NCBI GenBank assembly: GCA_005888365.1
Contig: VAWZ01000001.1
Coordinates: 19,483 to 52,429, forward strand
DNA length: 32,947 nt
Source: Actinomycetota bacterium
GTDB lineage: Bacteria; Actinomycetota; Thermoleophilia; Gaiellales; Gaiellaceae
Direction of reading: 5' to 3'
The translations under genes were made by a program, and so were the position numbers. The notes beneath the pieces were generated by a model, which did not search any database, was not told the DNA's origin, and saw only the letters and a program-made list of their open reading frames with translations. Of this stretch, positions 14,714 to 28,638 are shown piece by piece (position 1 is the stretch's first letter; each line of letters starts with the position of its first letter).

Positions 14714-14786
14714 GCCGGAGTAGCTCAGCTGGTAGAGCAAGCGCCTTGTAAGCGCTAGGCCGTGGGTTCGAGTCCCGCCTCCGGCT
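14714..14786 (+). tRNA. tRNA-Thr (anticodon TGT)
   Basis: A full cloverleaf can be drawn: acceptor GCCGGAG pairs with CTCCGGC, D-arm GCTC...GAGC, anticodon stem AGCGC/GCGCT with the loop CTTGTAA giving anticodon TGT, T-arm GTGGG/CCCGC with loop TTCGAGT, and discriminator T at 14786. CCA is not encoded. It lies divergent from gabT. It is intact and has no intron. The broken PD-(D/E)XK gene starts 41 bases downstream. Confidence 0.95.
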
Positions 14787-21924: not shown

Positions 21925-22641
21925 ATGGAGTCGCTTCTCAGCTCGTGGTACGCGACCGAAGGACGCGATCTTCCGTGGCGTCGCACGAACGACCCGTACG
22001 CGATCCTCGTGTCCGAGCTGATGCTGCAGCAGACGCAGGTCGAGCGCGTCGTCCCCCGCTACATCGCGTGGCTCGAGCGGTGGCCGACCGCAGAGGCGCT
22101 CGCCGCCGCTCCCCCGGGCGATGCGATTCGCGAGTGGCAGGGGCTCGGGTACAACCGCCGCGCCCTGAACCTCCACCGCGCGGCACGCGAGGTAGCCGAT
22201 GCCGGATGGCCGGAGGACCTGACCGAGCTCCCCGGAGTCGGCCCTTACACCGCGGCCGCGATTCGGTGCTTCGCGTACGGCGAGAACGTGCTCCCGGTCG
22301 ACGTCAACGTCGCACGCGTGCTCCGCCGAACCGGACACTCATTCTCGGCGACGTCGGCCCAGGCCTTGATGGATCTGGGAGCCACGTTCTGCGTCGCGCG
22401 AACGCCTCGTTGCGAGCGTTGTCCGCTGGCCAGCCTGTGTCCTTCGCGTGGCGTGCGAGAGCATCCAGTGCGGAAGCAGGGACCGTTCGAGGGCTCGTTT
22501 CGGCAACGCCGCGCAGAGACGCTTCGACTCGTCTCAGGGTCGTCGCACGCTCTCGCCGCCCTCGACGAAGAGGCCGTTCGCTCGCTCGAGCGAGACGGGC
22601 TCGTCGCCGTACGCGCCGGCGTCGTCGCCCTGCCGGACTAG
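21925..22641 (+). CDS. mutY: A/G-specific adenine DNA glycosylase, short form
   Basis: MutY removes adenine paired with 8-oxoguanine. The 238-residue protein has the catalytic Glu in SELMLQQTQVERV (E31), a helix-hairpin-helix ELPGVGPYTAAAI, the catalytic D126 in LPVDVNVARVL, and an iron-sulfur cluster loop C156-x6-C163-x2-C166-x5-C172. It lacks the C-terminal NUDIX-like domain that recognises 8-oxoG in E. coli MutY (350 residues); only about 65 residues follow the cluster. Short forms occur in actinobacteria. ATG at 21925, 23 bases after the hydrolase stop, so probably co-transcribed. Two hairpins follow the stop. Confidence 0.9.
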   Translation: MESLLSSWYATEGRDLPWRRTNDPYAILVSELMLQQTQVERVVPRYIAWLERWPTAEALAAAPPGDAIREWQGLGYNRRALNLHRAAREVADAGWPEDLTELPGVGPYTAAAIRCFAYGENVLPVDVNVARVLRRTGHSFSATSAQALMDLGATFCVARTPRCERCPLASLCPSRGVREHPVRKQGPFEGSFRQRRAETLRLVSGSSHALAALDEEAVRSLERDGLVAVRAGVVALPD

Positions 22642-22747: not shown

Positions 22748-23161
22748 CTACAGAATCGGACAGTTGACGACGACGGGAGCGGCTTTCACCGTGACCTGGC
22801 CCGCCCTCTGCGCCGAGCGGACGGCGGCCGCGGAGCGAAGGACACGAGCGTTGGCGCCGGATTTCCACGTCACCATGTGCACGGCCCAGAGCGGCGTGTA
22901 GCCCGCTCGGCCTGGCACGGTGTCGACGATGTTTCGCTGGCCCTCGGAGCCGTTCGCCACGACCCAGATAGGCGCGACCTTGTTGCCCGAGGCGAGCTTC
23001 ACCGGGCCGAAGTCGAGATACGAGATCAGCTCCCCTCGGTAGAAGCCGAGGGTCACATGCTGCGAGTACGTCTGCACCGGCCCGTCGGCAGCCGCGGCCG
23101 GGAGCGCAGACGCGCTCGCCGCGCAGGCGGCCAGCGCGAGCACCACGAGGATCTTCCTCAT
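22748..23161 (-). CDS. Small secreted protein of unknown function
   Basis: The 137-residue protein has a clear Sec signal (MRKILVVLALAACAASASALPAAA) and a mature part of about 110 residues: VQTYSQHVTLGFYRGELISYLDFGPVKL, IWVVANGSEGQRNIVDTVPG, YTPLWAVHMVTW and a C-terminal VNCPIL with a single Cys. It reminds me of secreted domains of unknown function in actinobacteria (possibly DUF7482), but I cannot place it firmly. Start ATG at 23161 has the strong ribosome site GGAAGGAGAG. It is divergent from the two-component operon across a nested dyad, so it may be a target or an accessory factor of that system. Confidence 0.75.
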   Translation of the reverse strand: MRKILVVLALAACAASASALPAAAADGPVQTYSQHVTLGFYRGELISYLDFGPVKLASGNKVAPIWVVANGSEGQRNIVDTVPGRAGYTPLWAVHMVTWKSGANARVLRSAAAVRSAQRAGQVTVKAAPVVVNCPIL

Positions 23162-23203
23162 CGGTCTCTCCTTCCGTCGATCTTCCGACCGTAGGGTGCA
23201 GCT

Positions 23204-23257
23204 CTTACGCAAGGGTGACAGCGACCTGAACGGTCGCTGAATTCACTTCTGCGTAAG
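23204..23257. promoter_or_regulatory. Nested dyad in the divergent promoter region
   Basis: An outer inverted repeat, CTTACGCA (23204-23211) and TGCGTAAG (23250-23257), encloses an inner one, CAGCGACC (23219-23226) and GGTCGCTG (23232-23239), almost on the same centre. CTGAA also occurs twice with an 11-base period (from 23226), the spacing of OmpR-type direct repeats. It is the likely operator of the response regulator. CACAAT at 23269-23274 lies six bases before the regulator GTG. Confidence 0.55.
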
Positions 23258-23280
23258 CCGCCTGCGAGCACAATGGGCAC

Positions 23281-23958
23281 GTGGCCACCGTTCTCGTCGT
23301 GGACGACGAACCGATCGTGCGCGAGGTCGTCGTCCGTTATCTGACGCGCGAGGGACATCGCACCCTCGAAGCTGCCGACGGCCTCGCAGCCCGCGCGGCG
23401 ATCGAGCGGTCGAACCCGGACCTCGTCGTCCTCGACGTGATGCTGCCCGGCACCGACGGCCTCGATCTGTGCCGCTGGATTCGCTCGACGTCGGAGCTTC
23501 CGGTGATCATGCTGACGGCCCGCAGCGATGAGGCGGACCGGATCGTCGGGCTCGAGCTGGGCGCCGACGACTACATAACGAAGCCGTTCTCGCCGCGCGA
23601 GCTCGCCGCGCGCGTACGGGGAGTCCTGCGACGCACGGCTCCGGCAGGCGTGCCTCTCGAGCGCATCGCGTTCGGCGACGTCTCGCTCGAGCGCGCAACC
23701 CGCGAGCTGCGCAAGAACGGGCTCGAGGTGAAGCTCACCGCCAAGGAGTTCGATCTCCTCTGGTTCCTCGCGAGCCACCCACGGAGGGTGTTCTCCCGCG
23801 ACCAGCTGATGTCGAGCGTCTGGGGCTACGCGGCGGCACTCGACACCGGCACGGTCACCGTCCACATACGACGGCTGCGAGAGAAGGTCGAGGGCGACCC
23901 CTCGGTGCCCGAGCACCTGCAGACCGTTTGGGGCGTCGGCTACAGGCTCGTCCCGTGA
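23281..23958 (+). CDS. OmpR/PhoB-family response regulator
   Basis: The 225-residue protein has a receiver domain (1-120) with acidic pair VVDDE, phospho-acceptor D52 in LVVLDVMLPG, T79 in VIMLTAR and K101 in YITKPFSP. A winged-helix DNA-binding domain follows (130-225): LTAKEFDLLWFLASHPRRVFSRDQLMSSVWGYAAALDTGTVTVHIRRLREKV ... VWGVGYRLVP. The start is GTG at 23281, with a -10-like CACAAT exactly six bases upstream. The histidine kinase gene overlaps its stop by four bases. Likely targets are its own promoter and the divergent secreted-protein gene, both flanking the nested dyad. The signal is unknown. Confidence 0.93.
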   Translation: MATVLVVDDEPIVREVVVRYLTREGHRTLEAADGLAARAAIERSNPDLVVLDVMLPGTDGLDLCRWIRSTSELPVIMLTARSDEADRIVGLELGADDYITKPFSPRELAARVRGVLRRTAPAGVPLERIAFGDVSLERATRELRKNGLEVKLTAKEFDLLWFLASHPRRVFSRDQLMSSVWGYAAALDTGTVTVHIRRLREKVEGDPSVPEHLQTVWGVGYRLVP

Positions 23959-25019
23959 TCGCCACCGCGGCGATCGTCGCCTGCTCGACGCTCGCGGTCG
24001 GCCTCGCCCTGGCGTTCGTGCTGCGACTGTTGCCGACCGTGCGGCTCCAGCTCGCCGGCCTCGCGTTCCTCGCGGTGCTCGTTCCGCTCGGAGCTGTGCT
24101 CCTCTCCGGCTGGGTCATGTTCCACATGGGCGACGACGTGAAGATCCTCGCCGTCGCGGCCGCGTCGGCCCTCACCGCCATCGTCGCGGCGCTGGTCGTC
24201 GCGAGGTCGATCGCCGACTCGATCGATCGCGTGCGCAGGGCTTCACTCGAGCTCGCGCGCGGAGATCTCGCCGCACGCGCGCCCGAGGGCGGCCCCACCG
24301 AGGTCGCCGACCTCGCGACGACGTTCAACGAGATGGGGGACAACCTGCAGCGGCTCTTCGACACCCGGCGCGAGCTGGTCGCGTGGGCGAGTCACGACCT
24401 GAGGACACCGCTCGCGAACATGCAGGCGATGCTGGAGGCACTCGAGGACGGTTTGGGTGCCCCCGAGGAGTACGTGCCTGCGCTCCGCGAGCAAGTCCGC
24501 GTCCTCTCCCACCTCGTCGACGACCTCTTCGAGCTCGCGCGCATCGACTCGGACGCGCTCACCCTCGAGCTCCAGCGGCTGCCCGTCGCTCCGATCGTCT
24601 CGAGCAGCCTGCGCGGAGTCGAGGCCGAGGCACGTCTGCGTCAGGTGCGGCTCGCGGCGGACGTCGGCGTTGACGTGGAAGCGAGATTCGCGCCGGAGAA
24701 GGTCGAGCGAGTGCTCATGAACCTGCTCACGAACGCCCTCCGCCACACGCCGAGCGACGGCTCCGTCGCGGTGCGCGTCGAGGCGTTTCCGGAGGAGGTA
24801 CGGGTTGCTGTCGAGGACACCGGTGACGGACTCGATCCCGAAGCGAAGACGCGAATGTTCGAGAGGTTCTGGCGGGCCGATCGGTCGCGCTCGTCGCGCG
24901 GCGCCGGGCTCGGTCTCGCAATCGCGCGCGGACTCGTCGAGGCGCAGGGCGGGCGCATCTGGGCGGAAGATCGGGAAGGCGGCGGCGCCAGGGTCTGCTT
25001 CACGCTTCCCGCGTCGTAG
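23955..25019 (+). CDS. Sensor histidine kinase with three N-terminal helices
   Basis: The 354-residue kinase has three membrane helices (about 3-24, 31-55, 63-83) with very short loops, so there is no extracellular sensor domain and the signal is probably sensed in or at the membrane. A HAMP-like linker (84-136) leads to the H-box WASHDLRTPL (H147). The ATPase domain has N-box LTNALRHTP, G1 DTGDGLD, F-box MFERFWRAD and G2 GAGLGLAIARGL. GTG at 23955 overlaps the regulator stop (GTGA), and this start puts the first helix at the N-terminus. It is the partner of the adjacent OmpR-type regulator. Confidence 0.92.
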   Translation: MIATAAIVACSTLAVGLALAFVLRLLPTVRLQLAGLAFLAVLVPLGAVLLSGWVMFHMGDDVKILAVAAASALTAIVAALVVARSIADSIDRVRRASLELARGDLAARAPEGGPTEVADLATTFNEMGDNLQRLFDTRRELVAWASHDLRTPLANMQAMLEALEDGLGAPEEYVPALREQVRVLSHLVDDLFELARIDSDALTLELQRLPVAPIVSSSLRGVEAEARLRQVRLAADVGVDVEARFAPEKVERVLMNLLTNALRHTPSDGSVAVRVEAFPEEVRVAVEDTGDGLDPEAKTRMFERFWRADRSRSSRGAGLGLAIARGLVEAQGGRIWAEDREGGGARVCFTLPAS

Positions 25020-27058: not shown

Positions 27059-27780
27059 CCGGGCGTCGTGAGCAGAGACTCGACGAGAGCGAGATCTGCG
27101 GGCGTCGTGACCTTCAGCAGTCGCGGATCGCCCTCGACGACGACGACGCGGCCACCGCCCTGCTCGACGAGCGAGGCGCAGTCCGTCGGGTCTGTGAGGT
27201 CTCCCGCGAACGCCCGCCGAAGCGCGGACGCGAGGAACCCCTGCGGCGTCTGCACCGAGACGAGACCGTCTCGCGACACCGTCTCGAGCACGCGGTCGCC
27301 CTCGACGCGCTTGAGGGTGTCCGGCACGGAGAGCGCAGGAACGACGCCGTCATAGCCTTCCGCGAGCGGCGCCAGGACACGCTCGACGACGTCATCCGAC
27401 AAGAGCGGGCGTGCCGCGTCGTGGACGAGGACGACGAGGGCCTCGTCGCCCACGTCGGCGAGGGCGTTCCGCACCGACTCGGCACGCGTCGTCCCGCCCG
27501 TCACACACGAGACGACCTTGCCCGCGGCGAGCTCCTCGCTGAGGAGGATCGCGGGCTCTTCCCAGCCGGGTGGCGCAGCGACGACGATTGCGTCCACCCA
27601 GGGGCAGCGGTCGAGCCGGTCGAGGCTCTCCGCCAGCAGCGGGCGCCCGCGGAGAGCCGCGAACGCCTTGGGCCGGTCGATGCCGAGGCGCTCACCGGCA
27701 CCGGCGGCGACGAGCACTGCCCAGGTCGAGTCGGTCGTGCTTTCTTCGAGTGGGGTCGAGGCGGAAGTGCCCTCAGGCAC
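27055..27780 (-). CDS. ispD: 2-C-methyl-D-erythritol 4-phosphate cytidylyltransferase
   Basis: IspD joins CTP and MEP in the MEP pathway. The 241-residue protein begins with an unusual 20-residue leader (MPEGTSASTPLEESTTDSTW) before the nucleotide-binding AVLVAAGAGERLGIDRPKAFAALRG. Later motifs are VVAAPPGW, GGTTRAESVRNAL, VLVHDAARPLLSDDVV, GVVPALSVPDTLKRVEG and VSVQTPQGFLASALRRAF, all typical. The leader overlaps the end of the carD copy by eight bases (GTG 27780, stop 27773), as the truncated first copy overlaps true carD. The start could be internal, but the conserved overlap favours GTG 27780. Confidence 0.92.
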   Translation of the reverse strand: MPEGTSASTPLEESTTDSTWAVLVAAGAGERLGIDRPKAFAALRGRPLLAESLDRLDRCPWVDAIVVAAPPGWEEPAILLSEELAAGKVVSCVTGGTTRAESVRNALADVGDEALVVLVHDAARPLLSDDVVERVLAPLAEGYDGVVPALSVPDTLKRVEGDRVLETVSRDGLVSVQTPQGFLASALRRAFAGDLTDPTDCASLVEQGGGRVVVVEGDPRLLKVTTPADLALVESLLTTPG

Positions 27781-27959
27781 TCGCCGCGGCGGCCTTCGGC
27801 TTCGCTCTCGACTTTGGCTTCGTCTGCCCGGCGCGCGAGAGGACGTCGTCGAGCCAGTCGGCTGCCTCCTCCTCGTCCATGCCCTTCGCGTACATGAGCT
27901 CCGAGGCGAGGATCTTCTTCGCCTTCACGAACATCTGCTTCTCGCCGGTCGAGAGTCCC
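27773..27959 (-). pseudogene. Duplicated C-terminal fragment of carD
   Basis: This is an exact copy of the carD 3' end, from GLSTGEKQMFVKAKKILASEL to the final KAAAASA and stop. It is joined in front to the truncated ispD copy, out of frame with it. It has no start of its own that I would trust, though an open frame from 28030 exists. It keeps the overlap with the intact ispD that follows. Confidence 0.85.
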
Positions 27960-28109
27960 CGCCAGAAGTGGACGCCCGCGGAGAGCCGCGAACGCCTTGG
28001 GCCGGTCGATGCCGAGGCGCTCACCGGCACCGGCGGCGACGAGCACCGCCCAGGTCGAGTCGGTCGTGCTTTCTTCGAGTGGGGTCGAGGCGGAAGTGCC
28101 CTCAGGCAC
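27960..28109 (-). pseudogene. Truncated 5' copy of ispD
   Basis: This is a copy of the first about 50 codons of ispD (GTG 28109, MPEGTSASTPLEES to FAALRGRPLLA), overlapping the stop of true carD by eight bases. At the end it joins carD-derived DNA. The final R-G-R-P-L-L-A uses three codons different from those of the intact ispD without changing the protein. The frame continues to 27501 as a meaningless 202-residue chain. Confidence 0.85.
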
Positions 28110-28638
28110 TCGCCGCGGCGGCCTTCGGCTTCGCTCTCGACTTTGGCTTCGTCTGCCCGGCGCGCGAGAGGACGTCGTCGAGCCAGTCGGCTGCCTCCTC
28201 CTCGTCCATGCCCTTCGCGTACATGAGCTCCGAGGCGAGGATCTTCTTCGCCTTCACGAACATCTGCTTCTCGCCGGTCGAGAGTCCCTTCTCGTTGTTG
28301 CGCACGGCGAGGTTGCGGACGACCTCGGCGAGCTCGAAGATGTTCCCGGTCTTCATCTTGTCGCGGTTGTGCTTGAAGCGGCGGTTCCAGTTCTTCGGCA
28401 TCTCCGTGGAGCCGCCGGAAAGTGTCCTGACTACCATCGTGACCGTTCGCTGGTCGATGACCTGACGGAGTCCGACGAGCTCAGCGTTCTCGCACGGCAC
28501 GTTGACCGTCATGTCGTTGTGAAGGATCTGGATCGTGAGGTATTCGCGGGTCTCGCCGAGCACTTCCCGCTTCTCCTTCCTCACGACGGTCCCCGCACCG
28601 TGGTGCGGATAGACCACCTTGTCGCCTATGTCGAACAA
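28102..28638 (-). CDS. carD: CarD-family transcriptional regulator
   Basis: CarD binds the RNA polymerase beta subunit and stabilises open complexes at promoters, including rRNA promoters in mycobacteria. The 178-residue protein has the N-terminal RNAP-interaction domain (FDIGDKVVYPHHGAGTVVRKEKREVLGETREYLTIQI, about 1-60) and the helical DNA-binding part with the conserved Trp in KNWNRRFKHNRDKMKTGNIFELAEVVRNL. A basic Lys/Ala-rich tail (TKPKSRAKPKAAAASA) follows. Start is TTG at 28638, supported by GGGGAGG five bases upstream and by the conserved first residues FDIGD. It heads the isp operon; a terminator hairpin separates it from radA. Confidence 0.93.
   Translation of the reverse strand: MFDIGDKVVYPHHGAGTVVRKEKREVLGETREYLTIQILHNDMTVNVPCENAELVGLRQVIDQRTVTMVVRTLSGGSTEMPKNWNRRFKHNRDKMKTGNIFELAEVVRNLAVRNNEKGLSTGEKQMFVKAKKILASELMYAKGMDEEEAADWLDDVLSRAGQTKPKSRAKPKAAAASA

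Follow-up and report, generated by a model that had tools for sequence, protein, structure and literature searches.

A predicted divergent double promoter between a two-component operon and a seemingly exchangeable secreted-protein gene in Gaiellaceae

What is the role of the short, repeat-filled gap that separates a two-component operon from a divergent gene for a small secreted protein in a genome of Gaiellaceae (2.66 Mb, 171 contigs)? In the window, that is, the whole stretch of 32,947 nt analysed here, the secreted-protein gene (minus strand, ATG at 23161) and the regulator gene (plus strand, GTG at 23281) leave 119 nt between them (Table 1). A sequence-only reading of this DNA had described two inverted repeats with a nearly common centre and an 11-bp CTGAA direct repeat, flanked by the response-regulator gene and the small secreted gene, and had taken the nested dyad as the element shared by both. 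The repeats are indeed present and the gene coordinates agree, and the functional unit appears to be a different one. We consider it very likely that the gap works as a divergent double promoter, at which the phosphorylated regulator would activate its own operon together with a dedicated, exchangeable secreted output.

The two genes on the plus side form a two-component pair of the OmpR/PhoB family: the regulator combines a receiver with a winged-helix (Trans_reg_C) domain, the kinase carries HisKA/HATPase, and the genes are adjacent, the start of the kinase gene overlapping the end of the regulator gene by 4 nt. Among solved structures the closest to the regulator is 2gwr, named response regulator mtrA (E 2e-60). 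The secreted protein matches DUF7482 (PF24298) with 50 bits against a gathering cut-off of 27.5, over profile positions 42-110 of 257 only. Its structure model (mean pLDDT 78.7, alignment of 17 sequences) gave no Foldseek match in the PDB at 0.001, the lowest E-value being 1.2, and a PDB sequence search with the protein returned three matches, to antibody chains (E 0.039 and 0.67) and a chlorophyll-binding protein (1.2). The predicted fold is thus one without a convincing PDB counterpart. On its other side the secreted-protein gene is bounded by a plus-strand gene whose product we take to be MutY-like.

Table 1. Positions of the genes, repeats and predicted promoter elements in the window
Feature	Position	Strand	Remark
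MutY-like gene, other boundary of the exchangeable slot	21925..22641	+	name by sequence
Small secreted protein, 137 aa, Pfam DUF7482 (PF24298)	22748..23161	-	signal-peptide-like N-terminus, C-terminal NCPIL
Predicted promoter/operator of the secreted gene, 54 nt, TTCAG-n6-TTCAG-n6-GTCAC-n6-GTAAG-n10-TACGGT	23188..23241	-	profile score 37.8
-10 element TACGGT of the secreted gene	23188..23193	-	start codon 32 nt after its first base
Half-site 4 GTAAG, 10 nt before the -10 element	23204..23208	-	sequence
Half-site 3 GTCAC	23215..23219	-	sequence
Half-site 2 TTCAG	23226..23230	-	sequence
Half-site 1 TTCAG	23237..23241	-	sequence
Outer inverted repeat, arms 23204-23218 / 23243-23257	23204..23257		12/15 positions pair
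Inner inverted repeat, arms 23219-23226 / 23232-23239	23219..23239		8/8 pair; mostly spacer; not conserved
Predicted operator of the regulator operon, TTCAC-n6-GTAAG	23242..23257	+	two-box pattern
-10 element CACAAT, 11 nt after GTAAG	23269..23274	+	start codon 6 nt on
OmpR/PhoB-family response regulator, 225 aa, GTG start	23281..23958	+	profile scans
Histidine kinase, HAMP + HisKA + HATPase	23955..25019	+	profile scan

To gauge what chance would produce, the 119-nt gap was subjected to 500 dinucleotide shuffles. Inner stems of at least 8 bp arose in 4 of the 500 and outer arms with at least 12 of 15 pairs in 15; four KTNAS half-sites in an 11-bp register arose in none, the KTNAS pattern having been defined after inspection of the window and its relatives. 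The scarcity of such a perfect 8-bp inner stem and of such outer arms, with centres 1.5 bp apart, would suit a model in which the nested dyad is itself the operator and a palindrome-binding repressor, or a DNA or RNA hairpin, controls both genes. Conservation argues against it. Five relatives keep the divergent gene pair (L003-L006, L009), a point that the earlier reading had named as a check, and do not keep the inner dyad: their best inner stems are 5-6 bp and their best outer arms pair at 10-12 of 15 positions, while the direct repeats are mostly kept (strict KTNAS counts of 4, 3, 4, 2 and 3). The inner stem lies mostly in spacers, which diverge to 25-50% identity across the five nearest orthologous promoters (window, L061, L113, L064, L066), where the box and -10 columns are 65-96% identical. 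Moreover, two loci in which the secreted gene points in the same direction as the system (L018, L019) carry four direct repeats before it, TTCAG-n6-TTCAG-n6-GTAAC-n6-GTAAG-n10-TAGAAC, which is the design of the window despite the reversed gene. On these grounds the dyad was rejected as the operator, a role that we regard as very improbable. The outer dyad arises because both divergent promoters end in the same half-sites on opposite strands, and the CTGAA repeat (23226-23230 and 23237-23241, spaced by 11 bp) is the complement of half-sites 1 and 2 of the minus strand. What is conserved is a set of tandem direct repeats with an 11-bp period on each strand.

Activators of the OmpR/PhoB family bind as phosphorylated dimers to tandem boxes, head-to-tail half-sites with a 10-11-bp period, that end about 10 nt before the -10 element, and contact RNA polymerase at the -35 position. 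The elements of the gap have the same layout, with head-to-tail half-sites at an 11-bp period and a location at -35, and represent a predicted tandem operator of this type; a ribosome-binding site lies between TACGGT and the start of the secreted gene. From this layout we infer a simple course of events. A triggered kinase would phosphorylate the regulator, which would then bind the head-to-tail half-sites at their 11-bp period. In front of the secreted gene four boxes, presumably occupied by two dimers, would take the place of a -35 element, ending 10 nt before the -10; the operon of the regulator itself has two boxes ending 11 nt before its own -10 element. CACAAT lies only 6 nt before the GTG, so the regulator transcript is probably leaderless; the predicted start sites are this GTG and, for the secreted gene, a position a few nt past TACGGT. 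The position of the boxes suggests activation rather than repression, both of the DUF7482 gene and of the operon.

The two-box design recurs at other regulator genes. Of 51 loci, 22, among them the window, have the pattern TTMA-n7-GTAA no more than 110 nt from the start of the regulator gene, against a mean of 0.03 and a maximum of 1 in 200 rounds of shuffling. In 16 of these 22 it stands between -38 and -40 and is accompanied by a -10-like element. Since the pattern was not found upstream of the regulator in the other 29 of the 51 loci, the autoregulation that it suggests would not be universal.

Is the four-box element specific to this system? A first pattern, (KTNAS-n6)x3-GTAAG-n10-TANNNT with at most one mismatch, matched 13 times in 13 of 103 family genomes, once in each, with no match of the reversed control. 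Eight of the matches are promoters of DUF7482 genes adjoining the two-component system, and the remaining five stand before different genes whose starts resemble signal peptides; three of these five sites share a contig with the system. A second pattern, run on 399 genomes of the class, gave 18 matches in 17 genomes (control 0). Fifteen of them, in 14 genomes, belong to the family and each precedes a signal-peptide-like start as judged by eye, the gene at L124 being frame-broken further on; outside the family, two stand at genes that look Pst-type by eye and one (L226) has no clear gene. Of the two Pst-type loci, both from another family of the class, L221 (G118) shows a PstS-like gene and L222 (G185) a permease-like gene about 250 nt on, as if PHO boxes there used the same four-box design. 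In the genome of the window the second pattern occurs once, even at three mismatches, and the two-box pattern at six places (reversed control, 2); the secreted DUF7482 gene would be the main, perhaps the only, four-box target there. All 16 family genomes with a match to the first or second pattern hold the two-component system, scored by the kinase or, in G039, by the regulator, which is cut by a contig end; a kinase at E 1e-60 or better is found in 49 of the 103.

A profile built from 11 sites other than that of the window extends these results. The window site, scored with a profile trained without it, reaches 37.8, and leave-one-out scores of the 11 training sites run from 24.0 to 42.9, with a shuffle maximum of 13.6 (560 locus-strands). 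At a threshold of 17, which was chosen after the scores were known, and with overlapping registers of one site (matches 11 bp apart) counted once, the element is present, beside orthologues of the two-component system, in 27 of 55 fetched family loci, or in 18 of 46 once the nine training-site loci are removed, and absent in 28 of the 55. Four of the 55 (L103, L106, L107, L110) have no regulator match, and L110 scores 19.3 yet lacks a plausible gene. The spacing is strict: at periods of 9, 10, 12 and 13 no family locus out of 55 reached the threshold at any gap tried (8-12), and with the period set to 11, a spacing of 10 nt between the last box and the -10 performed best, with 27 loci versus 14-16 at other gaps. 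Loci of other regulators or receiver domains in the genome of the window (n=11) score 13.6 at best, which is also the shuffle maximum. Twelve DUF7482 loci show no such system in their fetched stretch; eleven of them score 3.7 or less, and the twelfth, L024, scores 35.4, the system of its genome (G072) lying on another contig.

Beyond these, 32 further loci from titled records were scored, those repeating fetched family sequence being skipped, and nine reach 17 (L160, L165, L177, L184, L192, L195 and the Herpetosiphon loci L201-L203). All nine are among the 18 nearest kinases and none among the 14 remoter ones, of which the best scores 16.5 (L213). Two of the 32, L186 and L199, are other contigs of family genomes without a regulator and stand outside the 17/13 split of the remainder; because this split was made post hoc, nine of 32 is the safer figure. 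The three Herpetosiphon loci are near copies of each other, and orthology of their kinases is less sure because these align over residues 93-351 only, at 44-45%.

The arrangement of genes around the element bears on whether the neighbourhood is meaningful at all. The secreted protein of the window has matches in 22 of 103 family genomes, its own among them. Other genomes contribute 22 loci (L003-L024, with two in G072), ten of which adjoin the two-component system: five are divergent, four lie upstream in the same direction (L018-L021) and one lies downstream (L022, seen whole as L096). The element and a gene are found between the MutY-like gene and the regulator in 10 loci (L061, L064, L066, L070, L073, L077, L082, L092, L113, L115). 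In six others (L062, L065, L069, L095, L098, L099) the MutY-like gene abuts the regulator and the slot is empty; L062 and L099, of the same genus, thus have the two-component system and lack a secreted gene in the slot. In L063 and L100 the MutY-like gene is more distant and the search detected no element, and the other loci that do have one, including those of CHRD-like and propeller genes, have no MutY-like match in the fetched stretch.

The empty slots would be expected if co-location were incidental and the promoter of the secreted gene unregulated, a view that is scarcely credible given the exact 11-bp period and 10-nt gap kept across many genomes. Against it stand also elements in trans, at secreted genes of six genomes that hold the system (G047, G058, G072, G092, G101, G102); in G101 and G102, two of the six empty-slot genomes, the element lies elsewhere, before DUF7482-like genes. 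Starts resembling signal peptides follow the element in 24 of 28 cases, versus 35 of 375 background ORFs by the same crude rule; the four counted as not signal-like are L070 and L073 (starts probably mispredicted), L078 (broken frame) and L110. These results support the earlier proposal that the gap is a regulatory region common to the operon and the secreted gene, and the latter does look like a regulated output. Some genomes hold more than one copy of these components: G006 has two copies of the two-component system, one with a DUF7482-like gene (L086) and one with a propeller gene (L085); G047 has a second element in trans (L227, contig C158) at a spondin-domain gene, besides its own DUF7482 gene; and G092 has one (L224, contig C179) at a DUF7482-like gene, besides its own CHRD-like gene.

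The genes behind the element encode proteins of several kinds. DUF7482 proteins are found in the window and in L061, L064, L066, L068, L073, L113, L115 and L165, by Pfam in the window, L068 and L165 and by the search profile in the others. DUF7482-like small proteins with PGxxxY follow the element in L067, L077-L079, L082 and L086; a Pfam scan of L067, L077, L082 and L086 gave a sole match, in L086, below the cut-off. Spondin-domain proteins are encoded in L092, L160, L184 and L227, and in L070 as judged by eye; L092 and L227 pass the Pfam cut-off, L160 and L184 miss it, and L092 matches NF038123 with 110 bits (cut-off 40). The CHRD-like label of L071, L072, L074, L076, L083 and L112 is weak: the match of L071 (E 0.013) is below the cut-off and L076 has no CHRD match in the profile scan. 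Lactonase-type beta-propellers follow the element in L081, L085, L096, L101, L177 and L192, the label coming from Pfam for L085, L177 and L192, and Met-rich small proteins in L111 and L195, for which an MxKDx (pentapeptide) label was dropped as it had no NCBIfam support. The Herpetosiphon output is a Met-rich DM13 lipoprotein (DM13 51 bits, cut-off 25, in L203, the copy scanned).

On a quick regulator and kinase tree of 33 rows (L110, L113, L201 and L202 excluded; 9 of 30 inner branches weak, L203 and L195 long), the output labels need 13 changes, the minimum being 5, and are clustered compared with the shuffled mean of 21.2. As the tree is drawn, the labels are not of single origin. The same regulator and operator design thus seem to serve unrelated secreted proteins, some of which are encoded in one and the same slot, bounded by the MutY-like gene on one side and the regulator on the other, and the output gene appears to be exchangeable.

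Could a paralogous regulator of the MtrA, GlnR or PhoB type bind the boxes instead, the neighbouring system being merely near? In the pho boxes of PhoB/PhoP, tandem direct repeats follow one another every 11 bp and stop about 10 nt short of the -10, and the window operator likewise consists of tandem 11-bp repeats 10 nt before its -10. The window regulator scores 238.3 of 296.2 bits, below the PhoB cut-off, and the two phoU genes of its genome, on contig C79, are some 2 kb away from a different regulator (38% identity); assignment to the phosphate (PhoB/PhoR) system was rejected on both counts. Streptomyces MtrA boxes are given as G/T-T-G/A-A-C-C-n5-G-T-G/T-A-C (PMC5650626), with the half-site type and period of the window operator. 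The best NCBIfam model of the regulator is likewise MtrAB_MtrA. Membership in MtrAB was nevertheless rejected, the regulator scoring 249.1 of 300 bits and the kinase 162.5 of 450, both below the curated cut-offs; the window secreted gene also has four boxes, and the outputs differ. GlnR boxes follow an a-b-a-b order, gTnAc-n6-GaAAc-n6-GtnAC-n6-GAAAc (PMC10704036), and share with the window four half-sites at an 11-bp period. The box letters differ, however, and the window regulator shares its operon with a kinase. With the N-terminal Pfam model of GlnR it scores 20.2 of 27 bits, below the cut-off, and this membership was rejected as well.

Because half-site type and period match these Streptomyces MtrA and GlnR sites, the operator is of a known kind; for the same reason another regulator could also bind, and the two class-level matches at Pst-type genes point the same way. 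We nevertheless regard a paralogous regulator as unlikely. The element accompanies the two-component system in many genomes, without exception in the 16 pattern-positive family genomes, and is found in the system's own promoter as well, while the phoU genes stand near a different regulator. Control by the adjacent system remains the preferred reading. The name DUF7482 was not found in open-licence papers, nor, among the matches listed, were this two-component system, its pairing with DUF7482 or the exchange of outputs.

The kinase, in agreement with the earlier claim that it has no extracellular domain, exposes only a short outer loop, SGWVMFHMGDDVKI, of about a dozen residues; it has three membrane helices, loop and helices being read by eye. 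Intramembrane-sensing kinases lack an outer sensor domain and have a loop of under about 25 residues. The very short outer loop between helices of the window kinase is similar; its three helices and the conserved M, F and D of the loop are points of difference. S51, G52, M55, F56 and D61 are invariant in 21 aligned kinases, and loops of the MFxSxHDL type are kept by many remoter kinases, though not by L185, L188 and L213, which deviate at the positions of D or H. Among the five full-length kinases of CHRD-like loci, four have HMGAD in the loop and one has HMGTD; HMHDD occurs in the propeller loci L081 and L085 and in the element-less L075, other propeller loci being different. Such correspondence between loop type and output may reflect shared ancestry only.

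As the kinase has almost no outer part, the secreted protein might be its sensor partner and not only an output. In the Streptomyces HbpS-SenS-SenR system a secreted protein is reported to form a signalling pathway with a membrane kinase (PMC4991794); the likeness to the window concerns layout alone, a secreted-protein gene adjoining genes for a membrane kinase and a regulator. We hold this role to be rather doubtful, though less so than the other alternatives. The secreted proteins belong to several unrelated families while the kinases of the relatives stay alike, and in G101 and G102 the secreted gene lies elsewhere with the slot empty; an output therefore fits better than a fixed receptor partner.

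Some weak clues bear on the signal that such a kinase would sense. In Streptomyces sp. MUM 203J (L215, 2496-4004) a redoxin lipoprotein gene (by Pfam) and a CcdA-like membrane gene (by eye) are divergent from a remote homologue of the two-component system, and redoxin or Met-rich thioredoxin lipoproteins lie near other remote homologues (L216, L217); the profile search found no four-box element at these remote redoxin loci. Together with the Met-rich and DM13 outputs and the loop, these neighbours allow a guess at an extracytoplasmic redox or metal signal, and a guess it is because the secreted protein of the window is not Met-rich. More broadly, and as a tentative possibility to which we give slightly more weight than to a sensor partner, the system might be a widespread sensor 'socket' across Actinomycetota and some Chloroflexota, in which an intramembrane kinase and its regulator, with a fixed promoter architecture, are fitted with repeatedly exchanged secreted outputs. 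The common task of these outputs would be to protect against an extracytoplasmic oxidant or metal, or to repair its damage, and the conserved outer loop with its Met, His and Asp would sense that agent.

For a two-component system of little-cultured Actinomycetota, the locus offers an exactly defined operator that can be tested, along with a predicted target, and it places DUF7482 in a regulatory context. A fixed regulator and operator with rotating, unrelated secreted genes would clearly exemplify the exchange of outputs. The Herpetosiphon version, with its predicted target promoter at 2924-2977 of L203, comes from a named strain whose genome is complete (Herpetosiphon aurantiacus DSM 785), and a bench test might therefore be possible. 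Elsewhere in the window, a tRNA (14714-14786, plus strand) is the sole Rfam match at gathering scores. A tandem direct duplication (27615-28243) extends across the start of a gene that is IspD-like by eye, with two 300-nt copies that are 98% identical and 329 nt apart from start to start, possibly an assembly artefact.
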